Positions 47,494 through 61,612 of a stretch of 64,000 nt of DNA are shown in pieces (positions within the stretch are counted from its first letter, which is position 1; every line of letters begins with the position of its first letter). A program made the position numbers and the translations under genes. The notes under the pieces are model-generated. The model saw nothing but the letters and a program-made list of their open reading frames with translations, was not told where the DNA came from and ran no database searches. This DNA is from Desulfobacula sp. (lineage in GTDB: Bacteria; Desulfobacterota; Desulfobacteria; Desulfobacterales; Desulfobacteraceae), in the NCBI GenBank assembly GCA_018645325.1, contig JABGOU010000014.1:19847-83846 (forward strand), given 5' to 3'.

Positions 47494-47579
47494 GGCAGAT
47501 CTCCTATTTAAAATTATAAGATTCCCTTTAAAAGGTGTCTCTTTAAAAGCCACCATGACAAAAAAAAAGGCTGATATCA

Positions 47580-47593
47580 TTGATCTATGTCAA
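47580..47593. promoter_or_regulatory. CRP/FNR-type palindrome upstream of hcp
   Basis: TTGAT-CTAT-GTCAA, a near-perfect palindrome of the CRP/FNR superfamily. It is centred about 94 bp upstream of the hcp ATG. Regulators of this superfamily (HcpR, FNR) commonly control hcp genes. No regulator gene of this type is in the window, and no clear -10 box was found downstream. Confidence 0.45.
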
Positions 47594-47636: not shown

Positions 47637-49919
47637 TCACTCTTTTACATGCTTCCCCAGTTTTTGTATCTGGGCCAATAATTTTTGTGGATTCACCGGC
47701 AGTTCCTTTATCCTCACTCCTGTTGCGTCATAGATGGCATTTGTTATAGCGGCCATGGTCGGATTAAGGGCAGGTTCACCAATCCCTTTTGCACCATAAG
47801 GACCGTTGGGTTCGATAGGTTCAACCAAAATTGCCTTGATGTCCGGGATATCAAAACAGCTGGGAACAATATAGTCTACAAAATCGGCATTGATCATTTT
47901 ACCGTCTTCATAGGCCATGTTCTCCATCAAGGTCCACCCCAGTCCTTGAGCAATCCCGCCTTGAATCTGCCCTACGGTGGCCATTGGGTTTATGGCACGT
48001 CCCACATCATGGGCTGCAACAAAATTTGTGACAGAGACCTGGCCCGTATCCGGATCAACTTCAACCTCTGCAATTTGACATCCAAAGGGATAGGCCGGTG
48101 AGATATTTCCCTTTTTGGTATCTGGATCAGGCAGCTCAGTGGGGGGTTTATAAAAACCTGTCCCCACAATGGGTGCACCATGGTGTCTGATGGTGGCCTC
48201 GGAAGCAATATCCTGAAAAGAAATTTTGGTTTCAGAAGATGATTTAGAAAAAAACATTGCTTTTCGGCACGCAACATCAGCGGCTTTAGTGTTCAACATG
48301 TCAGCGGCAATATCCGCCATCTGATCATAGGCATCTTTTGCTGCTGCCAATACCCCGTTGCCACCCATCAATGTTCCCCTTGTGGCAAAGGAGCCCAGGC
48401 CAAAGGGTGAAATATCCGTATCCACCTGGGCTACATTCACCATGTCCATGGTAACCCCCAGCCGTTCCGCCACAATTTGAGCAAAAGTCGTGTTCTGCCC
48501 CTGTCCCATATCTGACTCGCCATGAAAAACTGTTATACGGCCGTCCTTACCAACACGTACGATCCCGGACCCGCCGTCAAACTCTCTTGCAAAAGGACGG
48601 TTACCGGATACATGGTTACAGCAGGCCAAACCAATGCCTTTAAAAGGGGTTTTATTATTTTTCTTCTGAGACCAATTGGCAGCCTTGCTTGCCTTGGTAA
48701 CACATTCCCGCAATCCGGAACTCCCTATTTTCCAGCCGTGAACACTGGTTTCATTGGAGCCCATTCCATTTTTAATCCGTAGTTCAGCCGGATCAATTTT
48801 TAGTTGGATAGCCAATTCATCCAGGGCAGACTCCAGAACAAATGTGGACTGCGAGTTTCCAAACCCCCTGAAACATGCTGTGGGAACCGAATTGGTATAG
48901 ACAGTGTATCCTTTTGCACGGACATTTTTCAACCGGTAAAGGGAATCTACCCGATAGCAGGCTGTGGCAACGATCACCTGGGAATAAACCAGGCGGGCAC
49001 CTGCTGCACCGACGACTTTAACATCTTTTGCAGTTAAAATACCATCCTGTGTAGCACCTATTTTAATATCAAAATGCATGGGGACCCGCGGATTGCCTGC
49101 GAGGAAATCATCATGGCGTGTGTTCACAAGCTTAACCGGCCGACCGGATTTTTGAGCCAATACCGCTGCTATCAAATGGATGTTATTTTCCATTTTACCC
49201 CCAAAAGCGCCTCCATACTCGGGAACAACAATACGCAGGTTATCCGGAGACATACCCAGTGCTTTGGCATAGGTCATACGCATCATGTTCGGAATCTGGG
49301 TTCCCGTCCAAATGCTCACTCGACCGGACAGATCCACATCTGCCAGGGCTGACATAGGTTCCATGTAAGCCTGATAGACCTGATTGGTGTAAAAATGATC
49401 TTCATACACCACATAGGAATCATCCATCGCCCGATCAACATCGCCTGCCTCAACTTTAAATTCAGCCCCTATATTGCCGGGCTTATCCTCATGTACCAAC
49501 GGCGCTCCTTGCTTCATGGCATCCAACGGGCTTATGATGTAAGGGAGTTCTTTGTATTCTACCCGAATCAGTTCCAAAGCTTGTTCTGCAATATCTGCAT
49601 CAACAGCAGCAACTGCTGCTACCTCATCACCGTGGAATCGTGTTTTATCAGAAGCAAAAATAGTCCAGTCCTCTGACCTTGGCCCAAATTTGATTTTGGG
49701 TGTATCCTGAAAGGTTACAACTGCTTTTACACCTGGCAGTGCAGCAGCCTTGGCCGTATCAATGGAAATAATTTTTGCATGGGGGTAAGGGCTTCTGAGC
49801 ACCTGCCCACAGAGCATTCTCGGGAGCACAAGGTCCGTAACAAATTTGGTCTCACCCGTGGCTTTTTCCCGTGCCGCTATCTGGGGAAAAGATTTTCCAA
49901 CAATGTCTAATTGGCTCAT
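47637..49919 (-). CDS. Molybdenum hydroxylase large subunit (xanthine dehydrogenase family)
   Basis: A 760-residue molybdopterin-binding subunit. Family features are VVPEYGGAFGGKMENNIH (about 235-252), TACFRGFGNSQSTFVLES, GQGQNTTFAQIVAERLG, and the catalytic Glu in PYGAKGIGEPALNPTMAA near the C-terminus. These enzymes hydroxylate carbon next to nitrogen in heterocycles or oxidise aldehydes. It overlaps the small Fe-S gene by four bases and forms a three-subunit enzyme with the two genes upstream. The substrate is not fixed by sequence; the neighbourhood suggests a nitrogen heterocycle. MocA and YqeC 21 kb away may mature its cofactor. Confidence 0.92.
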   Translation of the reverse strand: MSQLDIVGKSFPQIAAREKATGETKFVTDLVLPRMLCGQVLRSPYPHAKIISIDTAKAAALPGVKAVVTFQDTPKIKFGPRSEDWTIFASDKTRFHGDEVAAVAAVDADIAEQALELIRVEYKELPYIISPLDAMKQGAPLVHEDKPGNIGAEFKVEAGDVDRAMDDSYVVYEDHFYTNQVYQAYMEPMSALADVDLSGRVSIWTGTQIPNMMRMTYAKALGMSPDNLRIVVPEYGGAFGGKMENNIHLIAAVLAQKSGRPVKLVNTRHDDFLAGNPRVPMHFDIKIGATQDGILTAKDVKVVGAAGARLVYSQVIVATACYRVDSLYRLKNVRAKGYTVYTNSVPTACFRGFGNSQSTFVLESALDELAIQLKIDPAELRIKNGMGSNETSVHGWKIGSSGLRECVTKASKAANWSQKKNNKTPFKGIGLACCNHVSGNRPFAREFDGGSGIVRVGKDGRITVFHGESDMGQGQNTTFAQIVAERLGVTMDMVNVAQVDTDISPFGLGSFATRGTLMGGNGVLAAAKDAYDQMADIAADMLNTKAADVACRKAMFFSKSSSETKISFQDIASEATIRHHGAPIVGTGFYKPPTELPDPDTKKGNISPAYPFGCQIAEVEVDPDTGQVSVTNFVAAHDVGRAINPMATVGQIQGGIAQGLGWTLMENMAYEDGKMINADFVDYIVPSCFDIPDIKAILVEPIEPNGPYGAKGIGEPALNPTMAAITNAIYDATGVRIKELPVNPQKLLAQIQKLGKHVKE

Positions 49920-50404
49920 CTTACTTCTCCCTTTTCTTTTTCAGACTGGCAGCCGCAGGAATGGATGGCGTCAACAATTTTGTTATAGCCTGTACAGCGA
50001 CAAAGATTCCCGGCAATGGCCTGCTTGATTTCATCCTCACTGGGGTTGGCGTTTGCATCCAATAAAGCCTTGGCCGTGTTAATCATTCCCGGTGTACAGA
50101 ATCCGCATTGAATGGCACCTTTATCTATAAAGGCTTCCTGGAGCGGATGCACTTCTTTTTCACCTATTCCTTCAATGGTGGTTATTTGGCACCCATCGGC
50201 CTGGAGGGCCAGGGTCAGACATGCGTGGACAGGACGGCCATCCAGCAATACCGTGCAGGCGCCGCATTTTCCAAGTCCGCACCCTTCCTTTGTTCCAGTC
50301 AACTCCAAATCTTCCCGAAGCACATCCAACAACACTCTATTGGGTGTAATAAAAAGCGAATAATCTTCCCCATTAACAACAAGATGAATCCGTACATGCT
50401 TCAT
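49916..50404 (-). CDS. Molybdenum hydroxylase [2Fe-2S] subunit
   Basis: A 162-residue iron-sulfur subunit with two [2Fe-2S] domains. The plant-type one has EGCGLGKCGACTVLLDG followed by a Cys (HACL); the helical one has QCGFCTPGM and NLCRCTGYNKIV. The ATG at 50404 is chosen over 50452 since it overlaps the stop of the FAD subunit gene (ATGA) and opens MKHVRIHLVVNGEDY. It relays electrons from molybdenum to FAD. Confidence 0.93.
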   Translation of the reverse strand: MKHVRIHLVVNGEDYSLFITPNRVLLDVLREDLELTGTKEGCGLGKCGACTVLLDGRPVHACLTLALQADGCQITTIEGIGEKEVHPLQEAFIDKGAIQCGFCTPGMINTAKALLDANANPSEDEIKQAIAGNLCRCTGYNKIVDAIHSCGCQSEKEKGEVR

Positions 50405-51297
50405 GATTTCCCTCTTTGATTTTTTAATGTTGTTAAAACGTGTTGAGCACACCGCTGAACAAAAACATTGACAATTGTGCTTTTGTAATCTGCTGTAGCA
50501 CGGACGTCATCGATGGGTTTTGAGGCCCTGGCAGCTTTTTGCGCACACAGGGCAATTTTTTCAAATGCATCGTCAATACAAAGCCCCGTAAGACAGGTCT
50601 CAGCATCGGGAACCCGGATAGGAGTGGGAGCAACTCCGCCCAGGGCGATTTTTACCTGGCCTATCCTCTTGCCTGTGGGATCGGTTTCAGCCTGAAAGGC
50701 AACACCGGCCAATGAAATATCGACAGCTTTTCGCCTCCTGAGTTTAAGATAACATCCAGCAGATGGATTGACCGGCTTTTTGATAAGAATTTCCTTCAGG
50801 ATTTCGTTTGATTTTATAATGGTTTGGGCCGGGCCGCAAAAAAATGAAGTAATTGGAATGATTTTGTCTCCCTTAAGGGTGGCAATGACCACTGAGGCAT
50901 CCAGGGCCAGAAGGGGCGGTGCAGAATCTGCAGCCGGAGAAGCATTGCAGAGATTTCCGCCAATGGTACCAATGTTGCGAACCTGCCATGATCCAATCAA
51001 CCCCACGGCCTGGCAGAGAATTGACACCTCTTTTTCAAGAATGGGATTTATTGCAAGATCTGCGTGTTTGGCCATGGCTCCGATATGGATCATGCCGTTT
51101 TTTTCTTCAACATATTCTAAATTTTTAATAGAATGGAGGCTGATGACTGTGGAAGGAAGAATCTTCTTTTTTTTCATATTTAAGACAAGATCGGTCCCTC
51201 CGGCAAGCACCTTGGCATCGGGGCCTGATTGATCAAGTTGAATTAAAGCATCTTGCAAACTAACCGCCGCTTTAAAATCAAATGGCCTGATTCGCAT
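50401..51297 (-). CDS. Molybdenum hydroxylase FAD-binding subunit
   Basis: A 298-residue CO-dehydrogenase-flavoprotein-type subunit. The FAD pyrophosphate motif is KVLAGGTDLVLNMKKKK (about 29-45) and the second motif VRNIGTIGGNLCNASPAADS (about 105-124). It passes electrons from the Fe-S subunit to an acceptor. It is the first gene of the hydroxylase set and lies 18 bp from the end of the gntR gene on the same strand, so the hydroxylase is probably co-transcribed with gntR. Confidence 0.92.
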   Translation of the reverse strand: MRIRPFDFKAAVSLQDALIQLDQSGPDAKVLAGGTDLVLNMKKKKILPSTVISLHSIKNLEYVEEKNGMIHIGAMAKHADLAINPILEKEVSILCQAVGLIGSWQVRNIGTIGGNLCNASPAADSAPPLLALDASVVIATLKGDKIIPITSFFCGPAQTIIKSNEILKEILIKKPVNPSAGCYLKLRRRKAVDISLAGVAFQAETDPTGKRIGQVKIALGGVAPTPIRVPDAETCLTGLCIDDAFEKIALCAQKAARASKPIDDVRATADYKSTIVNVFVQRCAQHVLTTLKNQRGKS

Positions 51298-51315
51298 GTT
51301 TTGCTCCTTTATTAT

Positions 51316-51975
51316 TCATAGTTCTGATTCCTTAACCGCTTCCATGCTTTGATCAAGATGATACGCCATGAAGTTGCGGGCTTTTTTGACATGGCCTTCT
51401 TTTACTGCTTTAAAAATTGCCTGGTGTTCTTCAATCACCTTTACTGCACGGCCTTCAAGACTCAGGGCTTTTATGCCCATCACCTGGATCATGTCCCTTA
51501 TATTTTCCACGATTGAAATCATGCGGCTATTGTTTGTCAATGTAGTGAAACTGGTATGAAATTTCCTGTCTGCCTCAATAAAAGCCATATAATCTTTTTG
51601 GTTCACTGCTTTGCGCTGCTCCAGCAGGGATTCTTCAATGGCAAGCAGGTCGGGCAGAGGGGAAGTATTGGCAATTTTTTCAACGGATGCCTGTTCAATG
51701 GCCTTCCTCAATTCAAATATTTCATCCACATCACGCAGGTTGAAACGGTTCAGCATCAATCCCCTTCGGGGCATAAAAATAATGAGATCCTGGGAGGCAA
51801 GTTCCAGAAGCGCTTCTCTGACCGGTGTTCGGGAAATGCCCAGATCAGCTGCTATGGCCTTTTCATTGTATAACTCACCGATCTGCCACTGACCGGAAAG
51901 GATAGACTGGCGGATGGCTTCATAGGCCATCCTGGCAAGGGACTCGGGTTGCTTTATGGTTGCAAGCTTTGGCAT
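51316..51975 (-). CDS. GntR-family regulator (FCD domain)
   Basis: A 219-residue regulator. The winged helix has NEKAIAADLGISRTPVREAL (about 38-57), and the FCD ligand domain follows (about 80-215) with acidic and His residues that bind a metal and a carboxylate. The ATG at 51975 is preferred over a TTG one codon earlier. It sits between the hydroxylase genes and the divergent liv operon. A sigma70 promoter with a 13-bp motif over its -10 box lies upstream, consistent with autoregulation. Confidence 0.92.
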   Translation of the reverse strand: MPKLATIKQPESLARMAYEAIRQSILSGQWQIGELYNEKAIAADLGISRTPVREALLELASQDLIIFMPRRGLMLNRFNLRDVDEIFELRKAIEQASVEKIANTSPLPDLLAIEESLLEQRKAVNQKDYMAFIEADRKFHTSFTTLTNNSRMISIVENIRDMIQVMGIKALSLEGRAVKVIEEHQAIFKAVKEGHVKKARNFMAYHLDQSMEAVKESEL

Positions 51976-52043
51976 CAATAATCCTTTATTTTAATAGGGG
52001 TTGCATTTAATTTAATTGATCGCTTGATGGCCAATTTATTACT

Positions 52044-52073
52044 AATATATTACATACATAAAAATATTGTCAA
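52044..52073 (-). promoter_or_regulatory. Promoter and operator candidate of the first gntR gene
   Basis: Minus-strand TTGACA (52073-52068), 18-bp spacer, TATATT (52049-52044). The plus-strand motif ATATATTACATAC at 52045-52057 overlaps the -10 box. The same 13-mer occurs at 52256-52268 by the liv promoter. Confidence 0.6.
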
Positions 52074-52220
52074 GTATTTATTTAGTATTTTCATAGAAAA
52101 TCCCTCATTCTTACCGATACAGCACTAAGATACAACTTATTGAATATATTAATATTATAGCTATTCATAATGTTTTTATTAGGGGTTTTAAATCAATATG
52201 CCGGTATTATTATTTTTTAC

Positions 52221-52268
52221 TTGACACTGGATAAATCTTATTGTTATTGTATCTGATATATTACATAC
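52221..52268 (+). promoter_or_regulatory. Promoter and operator candidate of the liv operon
   Basis: TTGACA (52221-52226), 18-bp spacer, TATTGT (52245-52250), with ATATATTACATAC at 52256-52268 covering the expected start site. The ATG of the first gene is at 52294. Placement of the shared 13-mer at the start site suggests repression by the adjacent GntR protein. Confidence 0.6.
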
Positions 52269-52293
52269 GTTATTTTTTTTGGGAGACCTTACC

Positions 52294-53028
52294 ATGACCG
52301 ACAACCCGCAACAAACCTCACTGCTTCAGGCTGAAAATCTCTCTATGGCCTTTGGAGGTCTGGATGTTTTCAAGAATATCTCCCTTGATATTTTTGAACA
52401 TCAGATTGTAGCTTTGATTGGGCCTAACGGTGCCGGAAAGACAACTCTTATCAATTGTATTACAGGTGTTTATAAACCCACTGGAGGAAATATTGTCTTT
52501 CAAGGGAAGCCCATATCCGGGCTGCGGCCCCATCAAATCTGCCGTGCCGGTATTGGACGTACCTATCAGATTCCCCGGCCCTTTATGAATATGACTGTTT
52601 TTCAAAACCTTCAGGTCTGCGCTAAATCCAGTGAAACAGATTTTAGAGGACTGCTTGATCTGGCTGGTTTATGGGAGAAACGTGACCGCCTGGCCAAGAC
52701 CCTGACATTTCAGGAAAGACGCCTTTTGGAATTATCCCGGGCCTTGTCGGTAAATCCAAGATTATTGCTGCTGGATGAAACCATTGCCGGGCTGAATCCC
52801 AGTGAAACTAAAGACATGATGACAATTCTGAAACGGATTCATTCAGAATTCAAGGTTACCATCCTTTGGGTTGAACATGTAATGAGTGCAATAATGGAAA
52901 CAGCCCATCATATTTTTTGCCTGCACCAGGGAGCACTCATCGCAGAAGGAAGTCCGGCTGATATTGCAAATAACGATCAGGTGATAGAAGCCTATCTTGG
53001 CGAAGAATATAAATTTCAGGGAAAATAG
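52294..53028 (+). CDS. livG: Branched-chain-type ABC transporter ATPase, LivG-like
   Basis: A 244-residue ATPase. Walker A is GPNGAGKTT and Walker B is LLLLDETIAGLNPSE, with the switch His in WVEHVMSAIM. The signature, normally LSYGQ or LSGGQ, reads LTFQERR, so its conserved Ser and Gly are replaced. Energy for uptake may rest on the other site. The ATG at 52294 is chosen because GGGAG lies ahead of it. It is the first gene of a five-gene liv-type importer. Confidence 0.92.
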   Translation: MTDNPQQTSLLQAENLSMAFGGLDVFKNISLDIFEHQIVALIGPNGAGKTTLINCITGVYKPTGGNIVFQGKPISGLRPHQICRAGIGRTYQIPRPFMNMTVFQNLQVCAKSSETDFRGLLDLAGLWEKRDRLAKTLTFQERRLLELSRALSVNPRLLLLDETIAGLNPSETKDMMTILKRIHSEFKVTILWVEHVMSAIMETAHHIFCLHQGALIAEGSPADIANNDQVIEAYLGEEYKFQGK

Positions 53029-53036
53029 GCAGTGTT

Positions 53037-53744
53037 ATGTTAAAAATTGAAAACGTAAATGTTTTTTATGATGGTCTCCAGGCGCTTTACTCAGTATCAC
53101 TGGAAATTCAGGCTGAAGAATTTGTCTGTATACTGGGTCCCAACGGGGCAGGTAAATCAACCTTATTACAAACTATTGCCGGCATGCTGGCGCCAAAACA
53201 AGGGAGCATATCTTTTGCAGATCGACCTATTCACGGCCTTGAGCCCTTTAATATTGCCTCTCTTGGCCTTGCCCTGATTCCGGAAGAAGGATGGCTCTTT
53301 GGCCAGATGAGTGTGAAAGAGAATCTCTTAATGGGGGCGTATCCCAAATCCGCGCGGAAGAATATTAAAAGACAGATGGAGTTTGTTTTTGATCTGTTCC
53401 CCGTTCTATCTGACCGCAAAAACCAGCAGGCTGAGACCTTAAGCGGCGGGCAGAGACAGATGGTGGCAGTCGGGCGCGGGCTTATGTGCAATCCCAAAAT
53501 GCTCCTTTTAGATGAGCCTTCCCTTGGACTTGCCCCCATTGTTATTAACGATATCTTAAATGCCCTTGTACGGATCAACCGGGAAGAAAAAACTACTATT
53601 TTATTGACGGAACAAAATATTTTTCATGCCCTTAAAATCAGCCAGCGTGGTTACCTGCTTGAAAACGGAAAGATTTCCATGCAGGGAGCCAGTAAAGAAT
53701 TGCTGGGGAATAAGCATATCAAAAAAAATTATTTAGGTGTTTAA
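53037..53744 (+). CDS. livF: Branched-chain-type ABC transporter ATPase, LivF-like
   Basis: A 235-residue ATPase with normal motifs: Walker A GPNGAGKST, signature LSGGQRQMVAVGRGLM, Walker B LLLDEPSLGLAP. It begins 8 bp after the livG gene and pairs with it as a heterodimer. Its own signature is intact, in contrast to the partner. Confidence 0.93.
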   Translation: MLKIENVNVFYDGLQALYSVSLEIQAEEFVCILGPNGAGKSTLLQTIAGMLAPKQGSISFADRPIHGLEPFNIASLGLALIPEEGWLFGQMSVKENLLMGAYPKSARKNIKRQMEFVFDLFPVLSDRKNQQAETLSGGQRQMVAVGRGLMCNPKMLLLDEPSLGLAPIVINDILNALVRINREEKTTILLTEQNIFHALKISQRGYLLENGKISMQGASKELLGNKHIKKNYLGV

Positions 53745-53773
53745 CAAAAATTTTAATCTTTAAAGGAGGTACC

Positions 53774-54943
53774 ATGAAGAAGTCAATCTTACTAACCACT
53801 CTTATTTTTATTCTAACCGTGTTTTTACTCCCCTTGGGCGCGATGGCCGCTGATACCATCAAACTGGGTGTGGTGACACCCATGTCAACTGGTGATTTCA
53901 GATCCGGAAAAATCAACGTACAGACAGTTGAACTGGCTGTTGAACAAATTAATGCCCAGGGTGGTGTTCTTGGTAAAAAGCTTGAGGTTGTCACTGCAGA
54001 TGACGAGGGTAAACCCGCGGCAGGCGTCATTGCACTCAAAAGAATGATTGCCAAAGAAAAAATTTCAGCAGTAGTAGGCCTGTGGCACAGCTCAGTTGCC
54101 GTGGCCCAGGAAAAGGTTGCCACTCAAATGCAGGTCCCCATGATGCTTCACTACAGCTGGACCGACGATTTAACTGCAGGCCATTCAGATTATGTATATC
54201 GTGTTGGGCCATTTAATGCTGAGATTGCGCAGTTGGCGTTGCCATATATTGACAAAAATTATAAAAATATCGCCATTCTATACGAAACCAATGCCTTTGG
54301 AAGCGGTTTTGCAAATTACCTGGAAAAAATTGCAAAGGCTAAAGGACTTAACGTTTACAGTATTGGTTATCCCCAGGAAGCAACCGACCTCAAACCCCAG
54401 CTTTTGCAGCTTAAAGCCAAATCTCCCAAACCAGAGCTTCTGGTGATCGCTGCCGTTTATGAAGCCACTAACCTTATACCGAAACAAGCCCTGGAAATCG
54501 GTCTTGCGCCTGAAATGCAGATCCTTTGCAGCTGGGACTGGCCTACCTATCCAGCGTTTCAGGAAATCTTAGGTGAGAAGGGTGTGGGAGTAACATATGC
54601 TACCTTTGAATCAGATAAACTCAAGCTGTCTCCCCTGGGTGAAAAATTTAAAAAGGCCTATAAAGCAAAATATGATGTAGATCCGCCTGTTTTTGCCCTT
54701 TTTCTCTATGACGAGGTAATGATTTTAGCTGAAACCATGAAACGGATCAAATCATCTGATCCCAAAGATGTGGCTGCCGGATTAAAGGATACAAAGTTTG
54801 AAGGCACAACGGGGTTGATAACTTTTGAGCGTAAAGAAGGCCCAGGACCTGTATGGAATCAGTGGATGGGGCATCAGTTGTTCATTAACAAGCTGACTGC
54901 TGTTGAAGGAAAAAGTTATAAACGAGAACAAATTTATCCATAG
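53774..54943 (+). CDS. Periplasmic substrate-binding protein of the liv-type importer
   Basis: A 389-residue type I periplasmic binding protein with a signal peptide (about 1-25, cleavage after AMA). The first lobe opens IKLGVVTPMSTGDFRSG and the mid part has VVGLWHSSVAVAQEKV. This clade of LivJ/AmiC-like proteins binds amides, urea, aromatic acids and amino acids, so the substrate cannot be read from homology. An AAGGAGG site precedes the ATG. A strong hairpin follows before the permease genes. Confidence 0.9.
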   Translation: MKKSILLTTLIFILTVFLLPLGAMAADTIKLGVVTPMSTGDFRSGKINVQTVELAVEQINAQGGVLGKKLEVVTADDEGKPAAGVIALKRMIAKEKISAVVGLWHSSVAVAQEKVATQMQVPMMLHYSWTDDLTAGHSDYVYRVGPFNAEIAQLALPYIDKNYKNIAILYETNAFGSGFANYLEKIAKAKGLNVYSIGYPQEATDLKPQLLQLKAKSPKPELLVIAAVYEATNLIPKQALEIGLAPEMQILCSWDWPTYPAFQEILGEKGVGVTYATFESDKLKLSPLGEKFKKAYKAKYDVDPPVFALFLYDEVMILAETMKRIKSSDPKDVAAGLKDTKFEGTTGLITFERKEGPGPVWNQWMGHQLFINKLTAVEGKSYKREQIYP

Positions 54944-54966
54944 CGTTTAGTATTTAACCCGATCAA

Positions 54967-55006
54967 AAGGTCCAGGGGGGGGAGACTTTTCTTCCCCCTG
55001 AACCTT
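54967..55006 (+). terminator. Intercistronic hairpin after the binding-protein gene
   Basis: AAGGTCCAGGGGG pairs with CCCCCTGAACCTT with one mismatch, enclosing 14 bases. It sits between the binding-protein gene and the first permease gene. In transport operons such hairpins keep binding-protein mRNA abundant while lowering read-through. Confidence 0.65.
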
Positions 55007-55024
55007 GTTTCTGGAGATTAGCAC

Positions 55025-55888
55025 ATGTTATTGGAACTGTTTATACGCGGTATAACTATTGGTTTAGTTTATGCATTGATGGGCGTTGGACTGGCACTTT
55101 TAAACGGTGTCATGCGGATCATTAATTTTGCCCATGGCGAGTTCTACATGATTGGCGGCTATATGGCCTACTATTCATCAACGATGCTGGGGTTTCCATT
55201 TTATTTTTCAGTGCCGACAGCCATGATCGTTACCTTTTTACTAGGTGCTGTTGTTGAAAAATTGCTGTTAAGTCCGATTCATACCCAGGAAATGGAAAAA
55301 CCAATGGATTATGCCCTGATCATGACATTTGGGCTGCTCCTCTTTTTTCGGCAGCTGGCAATTAAAATTTTTGGACCGTTCCGTCATAAACCAGCCGATT
55401 ATATTACCTCTGATGTCTATATTCTTGGGGTTAAAATCAGCGGGAACGAGGTGCTGGCAGGAGTAGTTTCCGCCATTCTCGTCATTGGACTGGCCCTTTT
55501 TATAAAGAAAACGTGGCGGGGCCGCGGCTGGAGAGCCACGACCCAGTCCCGTAATGGTGCAAAAATTAACGGTGTGGATATTGGCAAGGAAAGCTGGATT
55601 GCCTGTGGTGTGGCCTGTGCCCTGGCCGGCGCGGCCGGTGCCCTGGTTGCCCCAATCTTCACCTTGTCTCCCACCATTGGTGGTTCCCCTCTGGTTAAAA
55701 GCTATGAAGTAATGGCCATTGGCGGCCTGGGTTCTATTGCCGGGTCGCTGGTGGCAGGCCTGATGCTGGGCATCACCGAAACCCTGGGTGCTTTTTATAT
55801 CTCATCGGCCTACAAGGATGCCATCGGGTTTTTAATGATGGGTTTTTTCCTTTTATTCAGACCCCAGGGACTCTTCGGACAAAAATAG
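55025..55888 (+). CDS. livH: Branched-chain-type permease, LivH-like
   Basis: A 287-residue permease with eight or so helices. Family features are LLNGVMRIINFAHGEFYMIG near the start and AIGGLGSIAGSLVAGLMLG near the end. It forms the channel with the LivM-like protein. The stop is 15 bp before that gene. Confidence 0.92.
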   Translation: MLLELFIRGITIGLVYALMGVGLALLNGVMRIINFAHGEFYMIGGYMAYYSSTMLGFPFYFSVPTAMIVTFLLGAVVEKLLLSPIHTQEMEKPMDYALIMTFGLLLFFRQLAIKIFGPFRHKPADYITSDVYILGVKISGNEVLAGVVSAILVIGLALFIKKTWRGRGWRATTQSRNGAKINGVDIGKESWIACGVACALAGAAGALVAPIFTLSPTIGGSPLVKSYEVMAIGGLGSIAGSLVAGLMLGITETLGAFYISSAYKDAIGFLMMGFFLLFRPQGLFGQK

Positions 55889-55903
55889 AGGATAGACTGT
55901 CTT

Positions 55904-56854
55904 ATGAAAAGAAATGAAATAATTGCTGCCGTTACAATCATTGTACTGGGTCTGATTGCACCAAAGGCGTTGCCGTCTGTCTGGATTACCGTCTTAAGCA
56001 TGGCATTTTACTATGCCATCCTGACCATAGGCTGGAATATCATTTTTGGTTATACCGGGCTTTTTTCATACGGTCATGCAGCATTCCCCGTCATAGGGGG
56101 TTACACATCAGCGCTTCTGGCCCAGCATATCGGGCTGTCACCTTTTTTAGGACTTTTGGCAGGTGCGCTGGTTGCAGGATTGTCAGGCATCCTCATCGGT
56201 CTTCTCATTTTACGGGTACGGGGCTTTTACCTATGTCTTGTTACATGGGCATTTGCCGAGGTGGTTAATGTCATTATTACAGCGGAACATCAAATAACCG
56301 GGGGTACAGGAGGATTACTGGCACCCACATTTTTTTCCGGACCCAATGGCGAATTGTTTGGATATTTTATGGGACTGGGACTGATGATGGCAGCCTTTCT
56401 GATCTCCATATTATTGTATCACTCACGTTGGGGGCTTAACCTTTTTGCGGTCCGTGACGATATTGACGCGGCAGAAAGCATGGGTATCAATACCCGTTTC
56501 TGGAAAGTCTTCGGATTTGCCTTTGGATGCACATTGGCGGGATTGGCAGGCGCCTATTTTGCCCACTTTTTAGGTTTGATCGATCCCGGGATAGGCGGTT
56601 TGGATCAGATGGGGTATGTTTGTTTGATTGTGATAATTGGCGGCTTGGGGACAGTGTACGGACCGATCCTCGGATCTTTCTTTGTTGTGATTACTAAAGA
56701 ATTGATCAGTGGCTGGGCAAGCGGATACAGCCTTTTAATTTTTGCTGTCATTATGATCCTGGCCGTTCGTTTTTTCAGTGGCGGTTTTATGGAAATCATC
56801 CAGGTGATCTCCCCTCGATTGACTAATAAATATTTAAAATTTGTTAATAAATAA
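55904..56854 (+). CDS. livM: Branched-chain-type permease, LivM-like
   Basis: A 316-residue permease with about ten helices, including GYTGLFSYGHAAFPVIGGY and IGGLGTVYGPILGSFF. The coupling-helix region is FAVRDDIDAAESMGINTRFW, typical of LivM. It completes the importer. Confidence 0.92.
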   Translation: MKRNEIIAAVTIIVLGLIAPKALPSVWITVLSMAFYYAILTIGWNIIFGYTGLFSYGHAAFPVIGGYTSALLAQHIGLSPFLGLLAGALVAGLSGILIGLLILRVRGFYLCLVTWAFAEVVNVIITAEHQITGGTGGLLAPTFFSGPNGELFGYFMGLGLMMAAFLISILLYHSRWGLNLFAVRDDIDAAESMGINTRFWKVFGFAFGCTLAGLAGAYFAHFLGLIDPGIGGLDQMGYVCLIVIIGGLGTVYGPILGSFFVVITKELISGWASGYSLLIFAVIMILAVRFFSGGFMEIIQVISPRLTNKYLKFVNK

Positions 56855-56896
56855 TGATTAAAAAATTTAAACCGTGACAAAGAAAAGGAGAAAAAA

Positions 56897-57241
56897 ATGG
56901 CTAAGCCGGAAATAGAGTTTAAAGATTATGATACTGAATATGAATGGAATGATGTTGAGGGCGATACCTTCGGGATTAAAGAAAAAATCCTCAGCCATGA
57001 TCCTGACACGGGAGATTACACCCGCATGCTCAAATTTCCTCCGGGTATTGAAACACAAGAGACCCTGGTGCATGATTTCTGGGAAGAGGTCCTTTTGGTG
57101 GAAGGCAGTCTTTATGACATGGCCAAAAAAGAAACTTTTCTGCCTGGCTATTATGCCTGCCGTCCTCCGGGAATGCTCCACGGACCCTATAAAATTCCAA
57201 ATGGTTGTGTTACATTTGAGATCAGGTATCATAAAAAATAA
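56897..57241 (+). CDS. Cupin-domain protein
   Basis: A 114-residue single cupin. Likely metal ligands appear in FWEEVLLVEGSLYD (Glu) and PPGMLHGPYKIP (His). The fold resembles ChrR-like cupins. No signal peptide. Its role in the cluster is unknown: a catabolic enzyme or metabolite sensor are both possible. It begins 42 bp after the permease behind AAAAGGAG. Confidence 0.8.
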   Translation: MAKPEIEFKDYDTEYEWNDVEGDTFGIKEKILSHDPDTGDYTRMLKFPPGIETQETLVHDFWEEVLLVEGSLYDMAKKETFLPGYYACRPPGMLHGPYKIPNGCVTFEIRYHKK

Positions 57242-57254
57242 AAAAGGATAAACT

Positions 57255-57947
57255 GTGAAAATTCAATTATTATTACAGAAAAACAATATATTAACACCCT
57301 TGTCTTTTAAGGTCGATAAAATGGTGAACGCGGGTTTTACTGGCAGGAATCAGGCAGAGGTGAGGCACCATCTGGATGAACTGGCTGCCAAGGGAATTGA
57401 GGTTCCTAAAACCACCCCTACACTTTATCCTGTGATCCCGTCCACCCTTACCACGGACACTTCCATTGTGGTTTACGAAGAAGAGACCTCGGGAGAAATT
57501 GAATATGTCCTTTTTGTTAAAGATGACAAAGAGATTTATGTGGGGATCGGAAGTGACCACACGGACAGAAAGCTTGAAGAGCTTGATATTCCCAGGGCCA
57601 AGCAGATCACACCCAATGTCGTTTCACCAGTGGTTTGGGAGTTGAATGATGTGGCGGATCACTGGGATAATTTAAGTATGGAATGCTCTGTTAAGAAAGG
57701 TGAAGAAACCTTCCTTTATCAAAAGGGCGGTTTGGGTCTTTTGATGTCTCCTTCTGAACTTTTGGAATTTGTTTCAAAGAAAATTAAAGGTCCATTAAAC
57801 AACATTGCCATTTTTTCAGGTACAGTTAAAATGGAAACAGAGGATTTTGTGTTTGCCGATACCTTTGCAGGTCTCCTGACGGACCCGACTTTGGACCGGA
57901 GCATCGGGTTCAGCTATGCAATCAAGCCGATGAATTACATGGAATAA
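57255..57947 (+). CDS. DUF2848 family protein
   Basis: A 230-residue protein that matches the DUF2848 pattern across its length: AGFTGRNQAEVRHHLDELAA, a following GSDHTDRKLEEL, VADHWDNLSMEC and LTDPTLDRSIGFSY. The family is related in layout to fumarylacetoacetate-hydrolase-type proteins, but its reaction is not established. The GSDHTDR and ADHWD motifs could bind metal. It starts at a GTG. Placement between a cupin and an amidase suggests a hydrolytic step. Confidence 0.88.
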   Translation: MKIQLLLQKNNILTPLSFKVDKMVNAGFTGRNQAEVRHHLDELAAKGIEVPKTTPTLYPVIPSTLTTDTSIVVYEEETSGEIEYVLFVKDDKEIYVGIGSDHTDRKLEELDIPRAKQITPNVVSPVVWELNDVADHWDNLSMECSVKKGEETFLYQKGGLGLLMSPSELLEFVSKKIKGPLNNIAIFSGTVKMETEDFVFADTFAGLLTDPTLDRSIGFSYAIKPMNYME

Positions 57948-57992
57948 ATGATCTTAAGCCATATTTAAACAGTCACAGGGAGAGGAGTTGTT

Positions 57993-58772
57993 ATGAAAGT
58001 TGCTTCAATTCAATTGTCGGTTGTCGAGGGAGACAAAGATGCAACACTTAAAAAAGCAAAACATGCCATAGAAGAAAGCTATGATGCAGACCTGGTTATT
58101 CTTCCTGAAATATGGAACATAGGTTTCATGAGCTTTGACCAGTATATGGACAAAGCTGAAACCATTGAGGGTCCGACACCAACCTTGATGCGGACGCTGG
58201 CCCGGGAAAAAGGCATTTACCTGCATACGGGCAGTTTTGTTGAAAAAGAAAAAGGGAAATATTACAATACCAGTCTTCTCTTATCGCCGGACGGGGAGAT
58301 CCTTGCCAGGTACCGGAAAATCCATTTGTTTGGATATAATTCAAAGGAAACGCAGATCCTCTCCCCGGGAGAGGAAATTGTTGTGGCGGATACACCGTTC
58401 GGAAAAATCGGAATGGCCACCTGTTTTGATTTAAGGTTTCCTGAACTATTCAGGGCAATGGTGGATAAAGGAGCTCAATATTTTCTGGTCTGTTCTGCCT
58501 GGCCCTATCCAAGAATTGAGCCCTGGATAATGCTGAACCGGGTCCGCGCCCTGGAAAATCAATGTTTTTTAATCTCTGCTAATTCAGCAGGAATAAACTG
58601 TGGAAGCCAGTTTGTAGGCCACAGCATGGTGATCGATCCATGGGGGACAATTCTGGCAGGCGCTGGAGATGAAGAAATGATAGTTAAAACAGACATTGAC
58701 CCTGCAAAAGTGGCCCAGGCAAGGGAGACCTTTCCCGGTCTGGCAGGTCGTAAAGATTTTTTAAACAATTAA
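57993..58772 (+). CDS. Carbon-nitrogen hydrolase (nitrilase-superfamily amidase)
   Basis: A 259-residue amidase with the Glu-Lys-Cys triad: Glu in LVILPEIWN, Lys in ARYRKIHLFG, Cys in MATCFDLRFPE. The length and pattern fit omega-amidase or N-carbamoyl hydrolase groups, which cleave linear amides. It follows the DUF2848 gene by 45 bp and precedes a PreA-like oxidoreductase by 12 bp. A ring-opening path ending in deamination would fit, but the substrate is unknown. Confidence 0.9.
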   Translation: MKVASIQLSVVEGDKDATLKKAKHAIEESYDADLVILPEIWNIGFMSFDQYMDKAETIEGPTPTLMRTLAREKGIYLHTGSFVEKEKGKYYNTSLLLSPDGEILARYRKIHLFGYNSKETQILSPGEEIVVADTPFGKIGMATCFDLRFPELFRAMVDKGAQYFLVCSAWPYPRIEPWIMLNRVRALENQCFLISANSAGINCGSQFVGHSMVIDPWGTILAGAGDEEMIVKTDIDPAKVAQARETFPGLAGRKDFLNN

Positions 58773-58784
58773 AGGAGAATTACT

Positions 58785-59978
58785 ATGGCTGATACAAGAA
58801 TAGAATTTTGTGGTGTAACCTTTAAGAATCCATTGGCTGCTGCATCAGCAGAGCCGACGCTTAATGCCGCAAATATGAAAAAATGTATCGATGCAGGTGC
58901 CGGTGCTGTTATTGCAAAGACCATGACAGACTCTCCTGATATGCGGGAATTGACCCAGCGCGCAAAATGGCGGTTTTTAAATGCAAAGCATGAAGTCTGT
59001 CACGGCAAAGTACCCAGATCATTCAGCCTTTACAGCAGGAGTGGTCTTGCCCTTGAACCCCCCGAAGATTTCATGAAGGAAATCACGGAAACTGTAAAAT
59101 ATGCAGCCCAGAAGGATGCAGTGGTCATCGGCAGTATCGGGTCAACTGAAATTGATGGCTGGGTCACATTGGGCAAACAGATGGAAGATGGCGGCGTGCC
59201 CCTGGTTGAATTAAATTTCGGATGCCCCCATCCCAAACTGATGCCCGGGGTTCGAACCGGCATGAACGTGGGCCAGGACTTTGACTATGCCTGCGAAATC
59301 ACCCAAAAAGTCTCAGAAGCCCTGGATGTTCCCATTATTATCAAGGTAACACCCCAGGTCACTGATCTTGTTTTATTTTCAGACATGCTCCAAAAAGCCG
59401 GAGCCAAGGCCGTCACCCTGACCAACCGGTTTATAGGGTTTGTTCCTGATATTGAAACGGGCGGACCCCTTATCTATGGAAAGGCCGGTGTGGGCGGTCC
59501 CTGGACCAAGCCCTTGACCTTGCGATGGATTAATGAAGTCAGAACGGCTTTAGGCGACAAACTTCATATCACGGGAACCAATGGTGCCTATGACTGGCGG
59601 GACATTGTAATGTTTATCATGAGCGGGGCTCACATTGTCCAGATGTGCTCTGCTGTCATGTGCTACGGGTATGACTGGCTGGGTAAACAGGTTAAAGGGC
59701 TGGAAACCTTTATGGATGAAAAAGGATACCAGACCATTGACCAGATGCTTGGAATTGCCACAGATGCCTGCATGGAATACAGCCAGATGCCCCATGAAAA
59801 AGCAAGTGTGGACAAGAAACTATGCATCAACTGCGGCATGTGCCTGAAGGTCTGTTTTTCAGATGCTATGCAGCCTGATGAAGAAAATGTATTTGTCAAA
59901 GAAGAAAACTGCGTGGGTTGCGGTGGATGTTACTCTGTCTGTCCTGTAAAAGGTACGATTAACTTGGTAAAGGTCTGA
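58785..59978 (+). CDS. PreA-like dihydropyrimidine/dihydroorotate dehydrogenase with ferredoxin tail
   Basis: A 397-residue protein. The FMN barrel (about 1-320) starts GVTFKNPLAAASAEPTLNA, has NFGCPHPKLMPGVRTGMNV and ends near HIVQMCSAVMCYGYDWL. The C-terminal ferredoxin (about 343-397) has CINCGMCLKVCFSDAM and CVGCGGCYSVCP for two [4Fe-4S] clusters. It resembles PreA, the catalytic subunit of NAD-dependent dihydropyrimidine dehydrogenase, which reduces uracil or thymine. No preT partner is nearby, so it could use ferredoxin. In this cluster it may reduce the ring product of the molybdenum hydroxylase. Confidence 0.9.
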   Translation: MADTRIEFCGVTFKNPLAAASAEPTLNAANMKKCIDAGAGAVIAKTMTDSPDMRELTQRAKWRFLNAKHEVCHGKVPRSFSLYSRSGLALEPPEDFMKEITETVKYAAQKDAVVIGSIGSTEIDGWVTLGKQMEDGGVPLVELNFGCPHPKLMPGVRTGMNVGQDFDYACEITQKVSEALDVPIIIKVTPQVTDLVLFSDMLQKAGAKAVTLTNRFIGFVPDIETGGPLIYGKAGVGGPWTKPLTLRWINEVRTALGDKLHITGTNGAYDWRDIVMFIMSGAHIVQMCSAVMCYGYDWLGKQVKGLETFMDEKGYQTIDQMLGIATDACMEYSQMPHEKASVDKKLCINCGMCLKVCFSDAMQPDEENVFVKEENCVGCGGCYSVCPVKGTINLVKV

Positions 59979-60064
59979 TCACCAGTAAGGAGATATCACC
60001 AGCTTTTTTTTAAAATTGGAATCAGAATCCCTTTGGTTTTCTTCTAAAGATATAGATAGTTACC

Positions 60065-60140
60065 AATGTGCCGGGACTGTTACCAAAACAGTTTCTTTTG
60101 TTGCATAGCCGAGGGAAAAATTTAATATTGCCGGCACATT
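60065..60140 (+). promoter_or_regulatory. Structured leader candidate upstream of the mttB-like gene
   Basis: A 10-bp perfect stem (AATGTGCCGG at 60065-60074 with CCGGCACATT at 60131-60140) encloses an inner hairpin ACTGTT/AACAGT (60076-60081 with 60087-60092). It lies in the 200-bp gap between the PreA-like gene and the mttB-like gene. It has no T-run, so it is not a classical terminator. It does not match riboswitch families I know. Confidence 0.45.
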
Positions 60141-60178
60141 TGTAAAAAAACGATTATTGCATACAGGGAGAGATAAAT

Positions 60179-61612
60179 ATGAAACCCAGCCTCAACTTTT
60201 TATCCCAAAAGGAAATTGAAACCATCCATGAATGTTCCTTAAAAATATTAAAGGAAATCGGGATGAAATTTCCAGCCAAAGAAGCCCTGGAAGCTTTTAA
60301 TAAAGCAGGTGCAAAAATAATCAATAAAGATACTGTGCTTATAAATGAAAGCCTTATAAATGATGCCCTGAACAAAACCCGGAAACGCAATGATCTGACA
60401 CTATATGCCTCAAACCCGGAAAATGATGTCACATTTAAAAACCACGATCCGGGCCTTACCTGTATGACCATGGCAACCAGTGTAATTGACCCCTGGTCCG
60501 GTGAAAAAAGGCCTGCAACAAATAAAGACCTTGAAAGGCTTGTCAGAATTGCAGACCACTTAAAACATATCAAGATATCAGGCGGCCTTGTCACCCCCCA
60601 GGATGTGAACCACACTGTATGTGACTGGTATACCTGGGCAGGCTGCCTTAAAAATACAACAAAACATATTACCGGTGGCGTTTTGGGGTACAGAGGTGTC
60701 CGGGATGCAATAGAAATGTGCAGTATTGTTGCCGGCAGCAGGGATGCTTTTTTGAAGAGGCCCTTTATATCGGGCTGGGTCTTGACTCTCCCGCCTTTGG
60801 GTATGGACACGGCCTCCCTTGAAGCTATGATGGAAATGAACCGGCATAATATCCCGATAATGTTGAGTTCCGGGCCTATTTTAGGCAGTACCTCCCCTGT
60901 TACCATCCCGGGTATGATCGCCCAGGCCCATGCTGAGATACTTGCATGTATCACTTTGTCACAATTAATAAACCCGGGCGCTCCTTTGGTATATACAAGT
61001 TTTGCCCGGGGAATGGATATGAAAACCTCTAATATTTCCATGGCCGGCCCCGAGTTTGCCGTATTAAAAGTAGCCATGGCCCAGATGGGTCTTTGGCTTG
61101 ACTTTCCTGTCAGGATGCCGTCCATGCTCAGGGATTCCAAACTGCTGGATGCCCAGGCCGGGTTTGAAACAGGAATGGTGGGAACTCTTTCTTCATTTAA
61201 TGCGGATATCATGGATGCCATGCAGCTTGATACTGATTTGGTAGTGGATTATCCAGACCTGGTGTTCTGTGATGATTGCATGGCTTTTATCAGACATGCA
61301 TTAAGACCTGTAAAAGTAAACCCCGAATCCCTGGCTTTTGATGCCATAAAGGAGGTGGGCCCCGGTGGTAACTATCTGACTTCCCAGCATACGTTTCAAC
61401 ATTTTAAGGAAGAACTCTGGCATTCAGACCTGTTTGACCACGATAACTGGGAAAACTGGAAAAATAAGGGTTCAAAAACAATCCGTGATAAAGCTTTGGA
61501 AAAAACATATAATTTGCTTGAATTGGAGTATCAACCCATTGTTTCCTCTGACCAGTCAGCTGCAATAGATTTTATTGTCAACAAAGCTCAAAAAGATTTA
61601 TCGGGAAAATGA
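60179..61612 (+). CDS. MttB-family methyltransferase (non-pyrrolysine)
   Basis: A 477-residue member of the trimethylamine:corrinoid methyltransferase family. Features are EIGMKFPAKEALEAFNKAG near the start, ISGGLVTPQDVNHTVCDWY and NISMAGPEFAVLKVAMAQMG. The gene reads through without any in-frame TAG, so it lacks the pyrrolysine of the true trimethylamine enzyme. Related non-Pyl proteins demethylate quaternary amines such as glycine betaine, proline betaine or carnitine. No corrinoid protein is visible downstream in the window. It ends 12 bp from a convergent ZIP gene. A GGGAG site precedes the start. Confidence 0.9.
   Translation: MKPSLNFLSQKEIETIHECSLKILKEIGMKFPAKEALEAFNKAGAKIINKDTVLINESLINDALNKTRKRNDLTLYASNPENDVTFKNHDPGLTCMTMATSVIDPWSGEKRPATNKDLERLVRIADHLKHIKISGGLVTPQDVNHTVCDWYTWAGCLKNTTKHITGGVLGYRGVRDAIEMCSIVAGSRDAFLKRPFISGWVLTLPPLGMDTASLEAMMEMNRHNIPIMLSSGPILGSTSPVTIPGMIAQAHAEILACITLSQLINPGAPLVYTSFARGMDMKTSNISMAGPEFAVLKVAMAQMGLWLDFPVRMPSMLRDSKLLDAQAGFETGMVGTLSSFNADIMDAMQLDTDLVVDYPDLVFCDDCMAFIRHALRPVKVNPESLAFDAIKEVGPGGNYLTSQHTFQHFKEELWHSDLFDHDNWENWKNKGSKTIRDKALEKTYNLLELEYQPIVSSDQSAAIDFIVNKAQKDLSGK

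Follow-up and report, generated by a model that had tools for sequence, protein, structure and literature searches.

A gene cluster in a draft genome of Desulfobacula sp. (4.39 Mb in 157 contigs) most probably forms one regulon dedicated to an N-methylated aromatic N-heterocyclic acid. The cluster occupies positions 47637..61612 of the 64,000-nucleotide stretch that we analyzed, hereafter called the window. Gene content, co-inheritance across genomes, a common operator, protein folds, and conserved residues provide good support for the regulon and for the class of its substrate, and from these observations we infer the individual reactions and the substrate itself. Homarine (N-methylpicolinate), which was not among the substrates listed in a first-pass annotation made from the sequence alone, appears to fit best; that homarine/picolinate in particular is the substrate is, in our judgment, evenly balanced.

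Open reading frames together with Pfam and NCBIfam matches reveal two divergent arms that lie across a 300-bp gap. The minus arm contains the three subunits of a molybdenum (Mo) hydroxylase and a GntR regulator. The plus arm contains livGFKHM followed by genes for a cupin, a DUF2848 protein, a carbon-nitrogen (CN) hydrolase, a reductase of the dihydroorotate dehydrogenase (DHODH) type, and an MttB-like methyltransferase. Family scans took in 10 cluster proteins; livG, livF, livH, and livM were labelled by inspection of their sequences. On this basis, the genes named in the first-pass annotation are confirmed in position and family.

47637..49919, minus strand: Mo hydroxylase large subunit (Pfam MoCoBD_1/2, Ald_Xan_dh_C); proposed picolinate 6-hydroxylase
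49916..50404, minus strand: Mo hydroxylase 2Fe-2S subunit (Fer2, Fer2_2)
50401..51297, minus strand: Mo hydroxylase FAD subunit (FAD_binding_5, CO_deh_flav_C)
51316..51978, minus strand: GntR/FCD regulator (Pfam FCD, GntR)
52038..52057, strand not assigned: operator-like site at the Mo/gntR promoter, 4 mismatches to GTATGTAATATATTACATAC
52249..52268, strand not assigned: operator-like site at the liv promoter, 2 mismatches to GTATGTAATATATTACATAC
52279..53028, plus strand: livG, ABC importer ATPase (open frame, labelled from sequence reading)
53037..53744, plus strand: livF, ABC importer ATPase (open frame, labelled from sequence reading)
53774..54943, plus strand: livK-type binding protein (Peripla_BP_6)
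55025..55888, plus strand: livH permease (open frame)
55904..56854, plus strand: livM permease (open frame)
56897..57241, plus strand: cupin (Cupin_7); proposed ring-opening (linearizing) enzyme or hydratase
57255..57947, plus strand: DUF2848 protein (PF11010, 186 bits)
57993..58772, plus strand: Nit2-like CN hydrolase (CN_hydrolase, PF00795)
58785..59978, plus strand: reductase of the DHODH/dihydropyrimidine dehydrogenase type with a 2x[4Fe-4S] tail (DHO_dh, Fer4_21); proposed ring reductase
60179..61612, plus strand: MttB-superfamily methyltransferase (PF06253, 332 bits); proposed betaine N-demethylase

Inspection of the 2Fe-2S subunit frame indicates that an internal ATG (50404) is a likelier start than the GTG of the listed frame, which reaches 50452. 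The nearest named relative of the locus belongs to Candidatus Desulfobacula maris (L122 in our numbering), with a DUF2848 protein that is 82% identical; the host is therefore likely a marine sulfate reducer.

The gene set is genuine and lies where stated; it is co-inherited, and it recurs more often than expected by chance. DUF2848 is present in 23 of 395 genomes of the phylum and 18 of 291 genomes of the order. Within the order survey, it was found in none of the 7 other genomes of the genus and none of the 10 of the family, which suggests acquisition by transfer. Neighbors were counted within 8 kb of DUF2848 at loci that rest on the best 80 of 415 DUF2848 relatives in named genomes; contig ends lower the resulting numbers. 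At the 22 loci with DUF2848 identity of at least 47%, these neighbors include cupin (21), CN hydrolase (20), reductase (16), Mo large subunit (14), GntR (14), and MttB (11). Of the 36 loci at 38–47% identity, 23 carry CN hydrolase, 20 cupin, 13 the Mo large subunit, 10 the reductase, and none MttB; among the 20 loci below 38%, cupin and CN hydrolase are each present at 9. These counts define a widespread core of cupin, DUF2848, and CN hydrolase. One branch additionally has Mo hydroxylase and reductase, and a subdivision of that branch is distinguished by MttB, whose presence can be predicted from reductase identity. An MttB orthologue accompanies 11 of the 14 reductases that are at least 73% identical to that of the window, and the contigs of the remaining 3 end too early; it accompanies none of 6 reductases at 46–69% identity, even though 5 of these loci have room for it. 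Among the 291 genomes of the order, MttB and reductase orthologues each occur in 7 and together in 5 (hypergeometric probability 2.6e-8; 4 genomes and 7.7e-7 without the window's own genome), with two of the 5 belonging to one genus and hence not fully independent. The search of other genomes for the gene set, which the first-pass annotation had proposed as a check, thus shows a core that recurs on many contigs and co-conservation of MttB and reductase.

Both arms share an operator-like sequence. Two copies of the 13-mer ATATATTACATAC are present in the window, one at each of the facing promoters, and no further copy appears when one mismatch is allowed (0.09 expected). In related loci, the 13-mer extends to a 20-bp palindrome, GTATGTAATATATTACATAC, which is perfect in L144. 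The site at 52038..52057 overlaps the -10 box of a promoter-like match at 52073-52044 (11 of 12), and the site at 52249..52268 lies just after a promoter-like match at 52221-52250 (10 of 12). With up to 4 mismatches to the palindrome, 20 sites were found in 1.30 Mb that comprise the window and 84 loci; 18 of the 20 are located a short distance upstream of GntR, livG, or the Mo FAD gene. Fifteen are in window-type clusters, 3 are in loci composed of MttB, BCCT, and BenE, and the other two are in L162 and L180. Twenty shuffled palindromes yielded 0–3 sites (mean 1.0) and reversed sequences yielded 1, an excess that is partly built in since the palindrome was derived from the same loci. Because the same operator is found in MttB-less loci (L144) and in loci that contain hardly anything besides MttB, the shared inducer may be the acid left after demethylation.

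The MttB-like protein matches PF06253 and contains no internal stop, which places it in the non-pyrrolysine MttB superfamily. It falls below the trimethylamine methyltransferase equivalog TIGR02369 (343 of 525 bits), and among solved structures a glycine betaine methyltransferase is closest to it. Characterized superfamily members (MtgB, MtpB, MtcB, MtyB) catalyze corrinoid-dependent N-demethylation of quaternary amines; the window protein differs in that its orthologue group is tied to ring-degradation genes and its substrate would be a pyridinium. Cluster MttB copies are 56–73% identical to the window copy, whereas 17 of 19 compared own-genome paralogues align at 26–32%, identities that indicate a distinct orthologue group. 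In L124, the MttB and Mo FAD genes overlap by 4 bp; they are 3 bp apart in L129, and in L130 MttB lies 12 bp downstream of the reductase gene. The window genome has 28 MttB-family matches, 6 of which contain an in-frame TAG, as expected for pyrrolysine users.

Transporters provide further information about the substrate class. The nearest solved relatives of LivK are amino-acid-type binding proteins of limited similarity; an orthologous liv set (65–81% identity) adjoins the cluster in L130. A BCCT transporter (Pfam, 488 bits) is encoded in the cluster of seven loci (L123-L129) and in G468 and G501, with a score below the glycine-betaine equivalog (324.6 of 650 bits). G562 and G546 are MttB-positive, lack DUF2848 and the reductase, and carry GntR, MttB, BCCT, and BenE, the last a benzoate-type transporter of aromatic acids. 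G546 additionally encodes an MtgC-like corrinoid protein (211.7 bits, short of the cut-off of 370) and a methyltetrahydrofolate:corrinoid methyltransferase (357.9 bits, above the cut-off of 259). The simplest reading is that cells of the G562/G546 type take the methyl group from an imported aromatic betaine and move the acid across the membrane. In L219 (9700-12653; G529), two reductase pieces flank a BenE gene, the N-terminal piece being 73% identical to the window reductase.

These arrangements bear on the possibility that two separate functions adjoin one another, with MttB and BCCT demethylating glycine betaine or proline betaine and the ring genes serving an unrelated heterocycle. The 28 MttB-family matches make a chance neighbor conceivable, and a 200-bp gap with a terminator-like stem (60073-60095) sets the window MttB apart from the reductase, although terminator-like matches in the region do not exceed those in shuffles (10 versus 11.1). 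We consider such a division improbable: the orthologous MttB lies beside the cluster in 11 loci and can overlap the Mo gene, BenE and the same operator occur in the MttB-only loci, and BCCT scores 324.6 of 650 bits against the glycine-betaine equivalog. Proline betaine, a substrate suggested by the first-pass annotation, would need neither a Mo hydroxylase nor a ring reductase.

The closest solved relative of the reductase is dihydropyrimidine dehydrogenase. The reductase, initially described as PreA-like, does not reach the cut-off of the PreA equivalog (239.8 of 335 bits). Alignment revealed that it retains the flavin-site and acid residues of dihydropyrimidine dehydrogenase: K574, N668, C671, K709, and N736 are all kept, whereas T737 is replaced by Arg215, I610 by Arg85, and N609 by Ser/Gly. 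In dihydropyrimidine dehydrogenase, N609, N668, N736, and T737 contact the pyrimidine and C671 is the acid; of these, N668, N736, and C671 are kept while the contacts N609 and T737 are changed. R85 and R215 are invariant, which we count as a sign of a carboxylate substrate. A route for pyrimidines or methylated pyrimidines with a PreA-type reductase would account for the closest solved relative. The score short of the PreA cut-off, the changed contacts, and the paired arginines argue against it, and dihydropyrimidinase is not among the cluster proteins scanned; such a route, which the first-pass annotation had entertained for methylated pyrimidines, is highly improbable. That annotation's observation that the known cyclic amidohydrolases are missing holds for the 10 cluster proteins that were scanned; other parts of the genome were not searched.

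The Mo hydroxylase large subunit contains the motif KGIGEP with the catalytic Glu and scores below the cut-off of all NCBIfam equivalogs; its orthologues in type A loci are 69–91% identical. In L123, L125-L128, L220, and L221, a Mo hydroxylase of another subfamily (26–29% identity) occupies the equivalent place in the cluster.

Structural comparisons suggest how the core proteins may act. The DUF2848 model (pLDDT, a per-residue confidence score, 95.0) matches structures of the fumarylacetoacetate hydrolase (FAH) superfamily, despite a score below cut-off against the FAH profile PF01557 (20.7 of 23.9 bits) and no detectable sequence match in the PDB. The matched enzymes bind pyruvate, 2-oxobutyrate, or 4-hydroxy-2-oxoglutarate, and in the solved structures of this fold small 2-oxo acids are held at an Mg or Mn ion; named relatives include FAHD1, fumarylpyruvate hydrolase, and 2-keto-3-deoxy-arabinonate dehydratase. 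Sixteen columns are invariant in 70 DUF2848 sequences, including H39/E42, E81/E83, D101, and K116. They follow the order of the FAHD1 catalytic residues H30, E33, E71, E73, D102, and K123, as given in two reports (PMC7056447, PMC8398924), and reproduce this catalytic set when matched by spacing rather than by residue superposition. Q109 of FAHD1 corresponds to Glu108 in DUF2848, and R25 and K47 have no clear match. We propose that DUF2848 acts with a metal ion at a ring-opening or 2-oxo step. The family still has no known reaction, as the first-pass annotation had stated; the model now assigns it a fold and a likely active site. DUF2848 occurs in two additional contexts. In L153, L183, L197, L201, and others, it accompanies YcsI (D-glutamate cyclase family), PxpABC (5-oxoprolinase), and TRAP genes, a lactam-related setting; in L145, L148, L150, L162, and L177, its neighbors are a CoxL-like Mo enzyme, CoxG, and, in most cases, an AMP ligase, perhaps a CoA-ester route.

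The cupin is the most conserved protein (80–89% in the nearest loci; model pLDDT 94.5). Among its closest folds, tied with other cupins, is KdgF, which converts a cyclic enol ether with a 2-carboxy group into a linear 2-keto acid. KdgF is likewise a small cupin, and its reaction is the oxygen analogue of the step proposed here; metal ligands are not matched. In the genus of L154, proC (8679-9524 in L154) adjoins the cupin gene; its product, pyrroline-carboxylate reductase, could use a related cyclic imine as substrate. The enzyme initially labelled an amidase is a CN hydrolase and does not belong to the amidase-signature family. Among solved structures, mouse omega-amidase Nit2 (2w1v, 153 bits) is closest to it, and it has the CN-hydrolase fold with the Glu/Lys/Cys triad in the motifs LPE, RKIHL, and CFDLRFPE. 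It scores below all NCBIfam equivalog cut-offs.

Genes for 2-oxoacid:ferredoxin oxidoreductase (Kor) indicate what may follow. KorA lies within 8 kb of DUF2848 in 8 of 78 loci, 5 of which are among the 26 with reductase. In L157, a Chloroflexi metagenome-assembled genome, the cluster runs contiguously in a single direction through Mo genes, KorABC, reductase, CN hydrolase, DUF2848, cupin, and liv, and KorABC, cupin, DUF2848, and reductase are contiguous in L149 and L161. KorA of L157, L161, and L154 passes the NCBIfam 2-oxoacid oxidoreductase cut-off; that of L144 does not. A ring-opening unit accompanied by an omega-amidase and Kor makes a 2-oxo omega-amide and a 2-oxo acid the probable products.

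Together, these features suggest a model in which homarine would be imported by liv (BCCT or TRAP in relatives) and MttB would transfer the methyl group on its nitrogen to a corrinoid protein, with subsequent oxidation by way of tetrahydrofolate. The Mo hydroxylase would convert picolinate to 6-hydroxypicolinate (2 electrons out), and the DHODH-type reductase would saturate C4=C5 (2 electrons in) to yield a cyclic 2-carboxy enamide (tetrahydro-lactam). Cupin and FAH-fold DUF2848 would jointly hydrate and open the enamide to 2-oxoadipamate, from which the Nit2-like enzyme would free ammonia; the resulting 2-oxoadipate could be converted to glutaryl-CoA by 2-oxoacid:ferredoxin oxidoreductase. 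The net reaction, picolinate + 3 H2O -> 2-oxoadipate + NH3, would be redox neutral and use neither oxygen nor ATP. A pyridine-2-carboxylate is favored over nicotinate because hydroxylation and reduction give 2-oxoadipamate and 2-oxoadipate only from the former, and we favor homarine because it is at once a betaine and an aromatic acid, has its carboxyl adjacent to the nitrogen of the ring, and suits a marine environment.

Trigonelline, another suggestion of the first-pass annotation, is also an N-methylpyridinium acid and would share the first chemistry. MttB would release nicotinate, the Mo enzyme would form 6-hydroxynicotinate, and the reductase would form 6-oxotetrahydronicotinate, which would open to a formyl amide. 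Anaerobic nicotinate degradation of the Eubacterium barkeri type likewise uses Mo hydroxylation next to the nitrogen, two-electron ring reduction, and hydrolytic opening, and ends in 2-formylglutarate rather than the 2-oxoadipate proposed for the window. The window encodes instead a DHODH-type reductase and FAH-fold DUF2848 with cupin and omega-amidase; neither an enamidase-type amidohydrolase nor the methyleneglutarate steps of nicotinate fermentation were seen among the 10 scanned proteins of the cluster, to which the search was confined. A product that is not a 2-oxo acid would leave the Nit2-like enzyme, the FAH-fold enzyme, and the Kor neighbors unexplained, and we regard trigonelline/nicotinate as an improbable candidate.

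The same logic could serve another ring-2-carboxylate or N-methylated aromatic N-acid, such as a substituted picolinate, dipicolinate, or an N-methyl azole carboxylate. The class-level evidence (BCCT, BenE, the arginines, omega-amidase, FAH fold, and Kor neighbors) applies equally to these acids, and the MttB-less loci (L138, L144, L154, L157) must use an unmethylated acid. For the window, we consider this rather unlikely: its cluster has no gene for a second ring substituent (decarboxylase or other demethylase), and homarine, a marine osmolyte, is the abundant marine compound known of this type. PMC8269262 describes homarine as an abundant, understudied marine metabolite without a characterized degradation pathway as of 2021, and its levels in marine particles, before later correction, are given as 0.6–67 nM, compared with 1–300 pM for trigonelline. 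The openly licensed literature yielded neither a link between homarine and degradation genes nor an account of its breakdown without oxygen; work elsewhere is possible. The initial proposal of an undescribed pathway for an N-methylated N-heterocycle, with hydroxylation, reduction, and hydrolytic opening of the ring and cleavage of an amide, is supported by co-inheritance, the common operator, and transporter swaps; the substrates it named are not the best fit.

Aerobic picolinate degradation continues beyond its first step with addition of a second hydroxyl, decarboxylation by PicC, and ring cleavage with oxygen, whereas our scheme uses reduction and hydrolysis. The two routes would share their first reaction, conversion of picolinate to 6-hydroxypicolinate by a Mo enzyme. 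The pic cluster of the aerobic route is a subject of PMC10142695.

Several observations weigh against our interpretation. GntR is present in L134 and L137, where no operator was found within 4 mismatches, and the terminator-like stem precedes the window MttB. Kor genes do not lie beside MttB-bearing loci, including the window cluster, and the only Kor alpha gene above cut-off in the window genome is on another contig. DUF2848 is not specific to the pathway, as it also occurs beside PxpABC/YcsI or AMP ligases. The locus Mo hydroxylase of Desulfotignum and G468/G501 is non-orthologous, and elsewhere in these drafts none at least 70% identical was found, nor any orthologue above 39%; this reflects either replacement or a different step. 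No MttB enzyme is known to demethylate a pyridinium. Finally, the homarine values of PMC8269262 were later corrected downward because, according to PMC10134881, the standard contained picolinic acid.

It is tempting to speculate further, and we do so tentatively, that the cluster encodes every step needed to turn homarine into a central 2-oxo acid without oxygen, that the cupin/DUF2848/omega-amidase unit serves widely among bacteria to open cyclic 2-carboxy enamides or lactams to 2-oxo acids, and that a demethylation-only variant exports the aromatic acid. If so, the fate of homarine in anoxic sediment would become testable through a defined gene set, DUF2848 would gain its first role, MttB chemistry would extend to aromatic rings, and the demethylate-and-export variant would be explained. 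Adjacent to the cluster, window positions 45730-47580 encode a 616-amino-acid protein with a twin-arginine-like start, which we take to resemble a hybrid-cluster protein.

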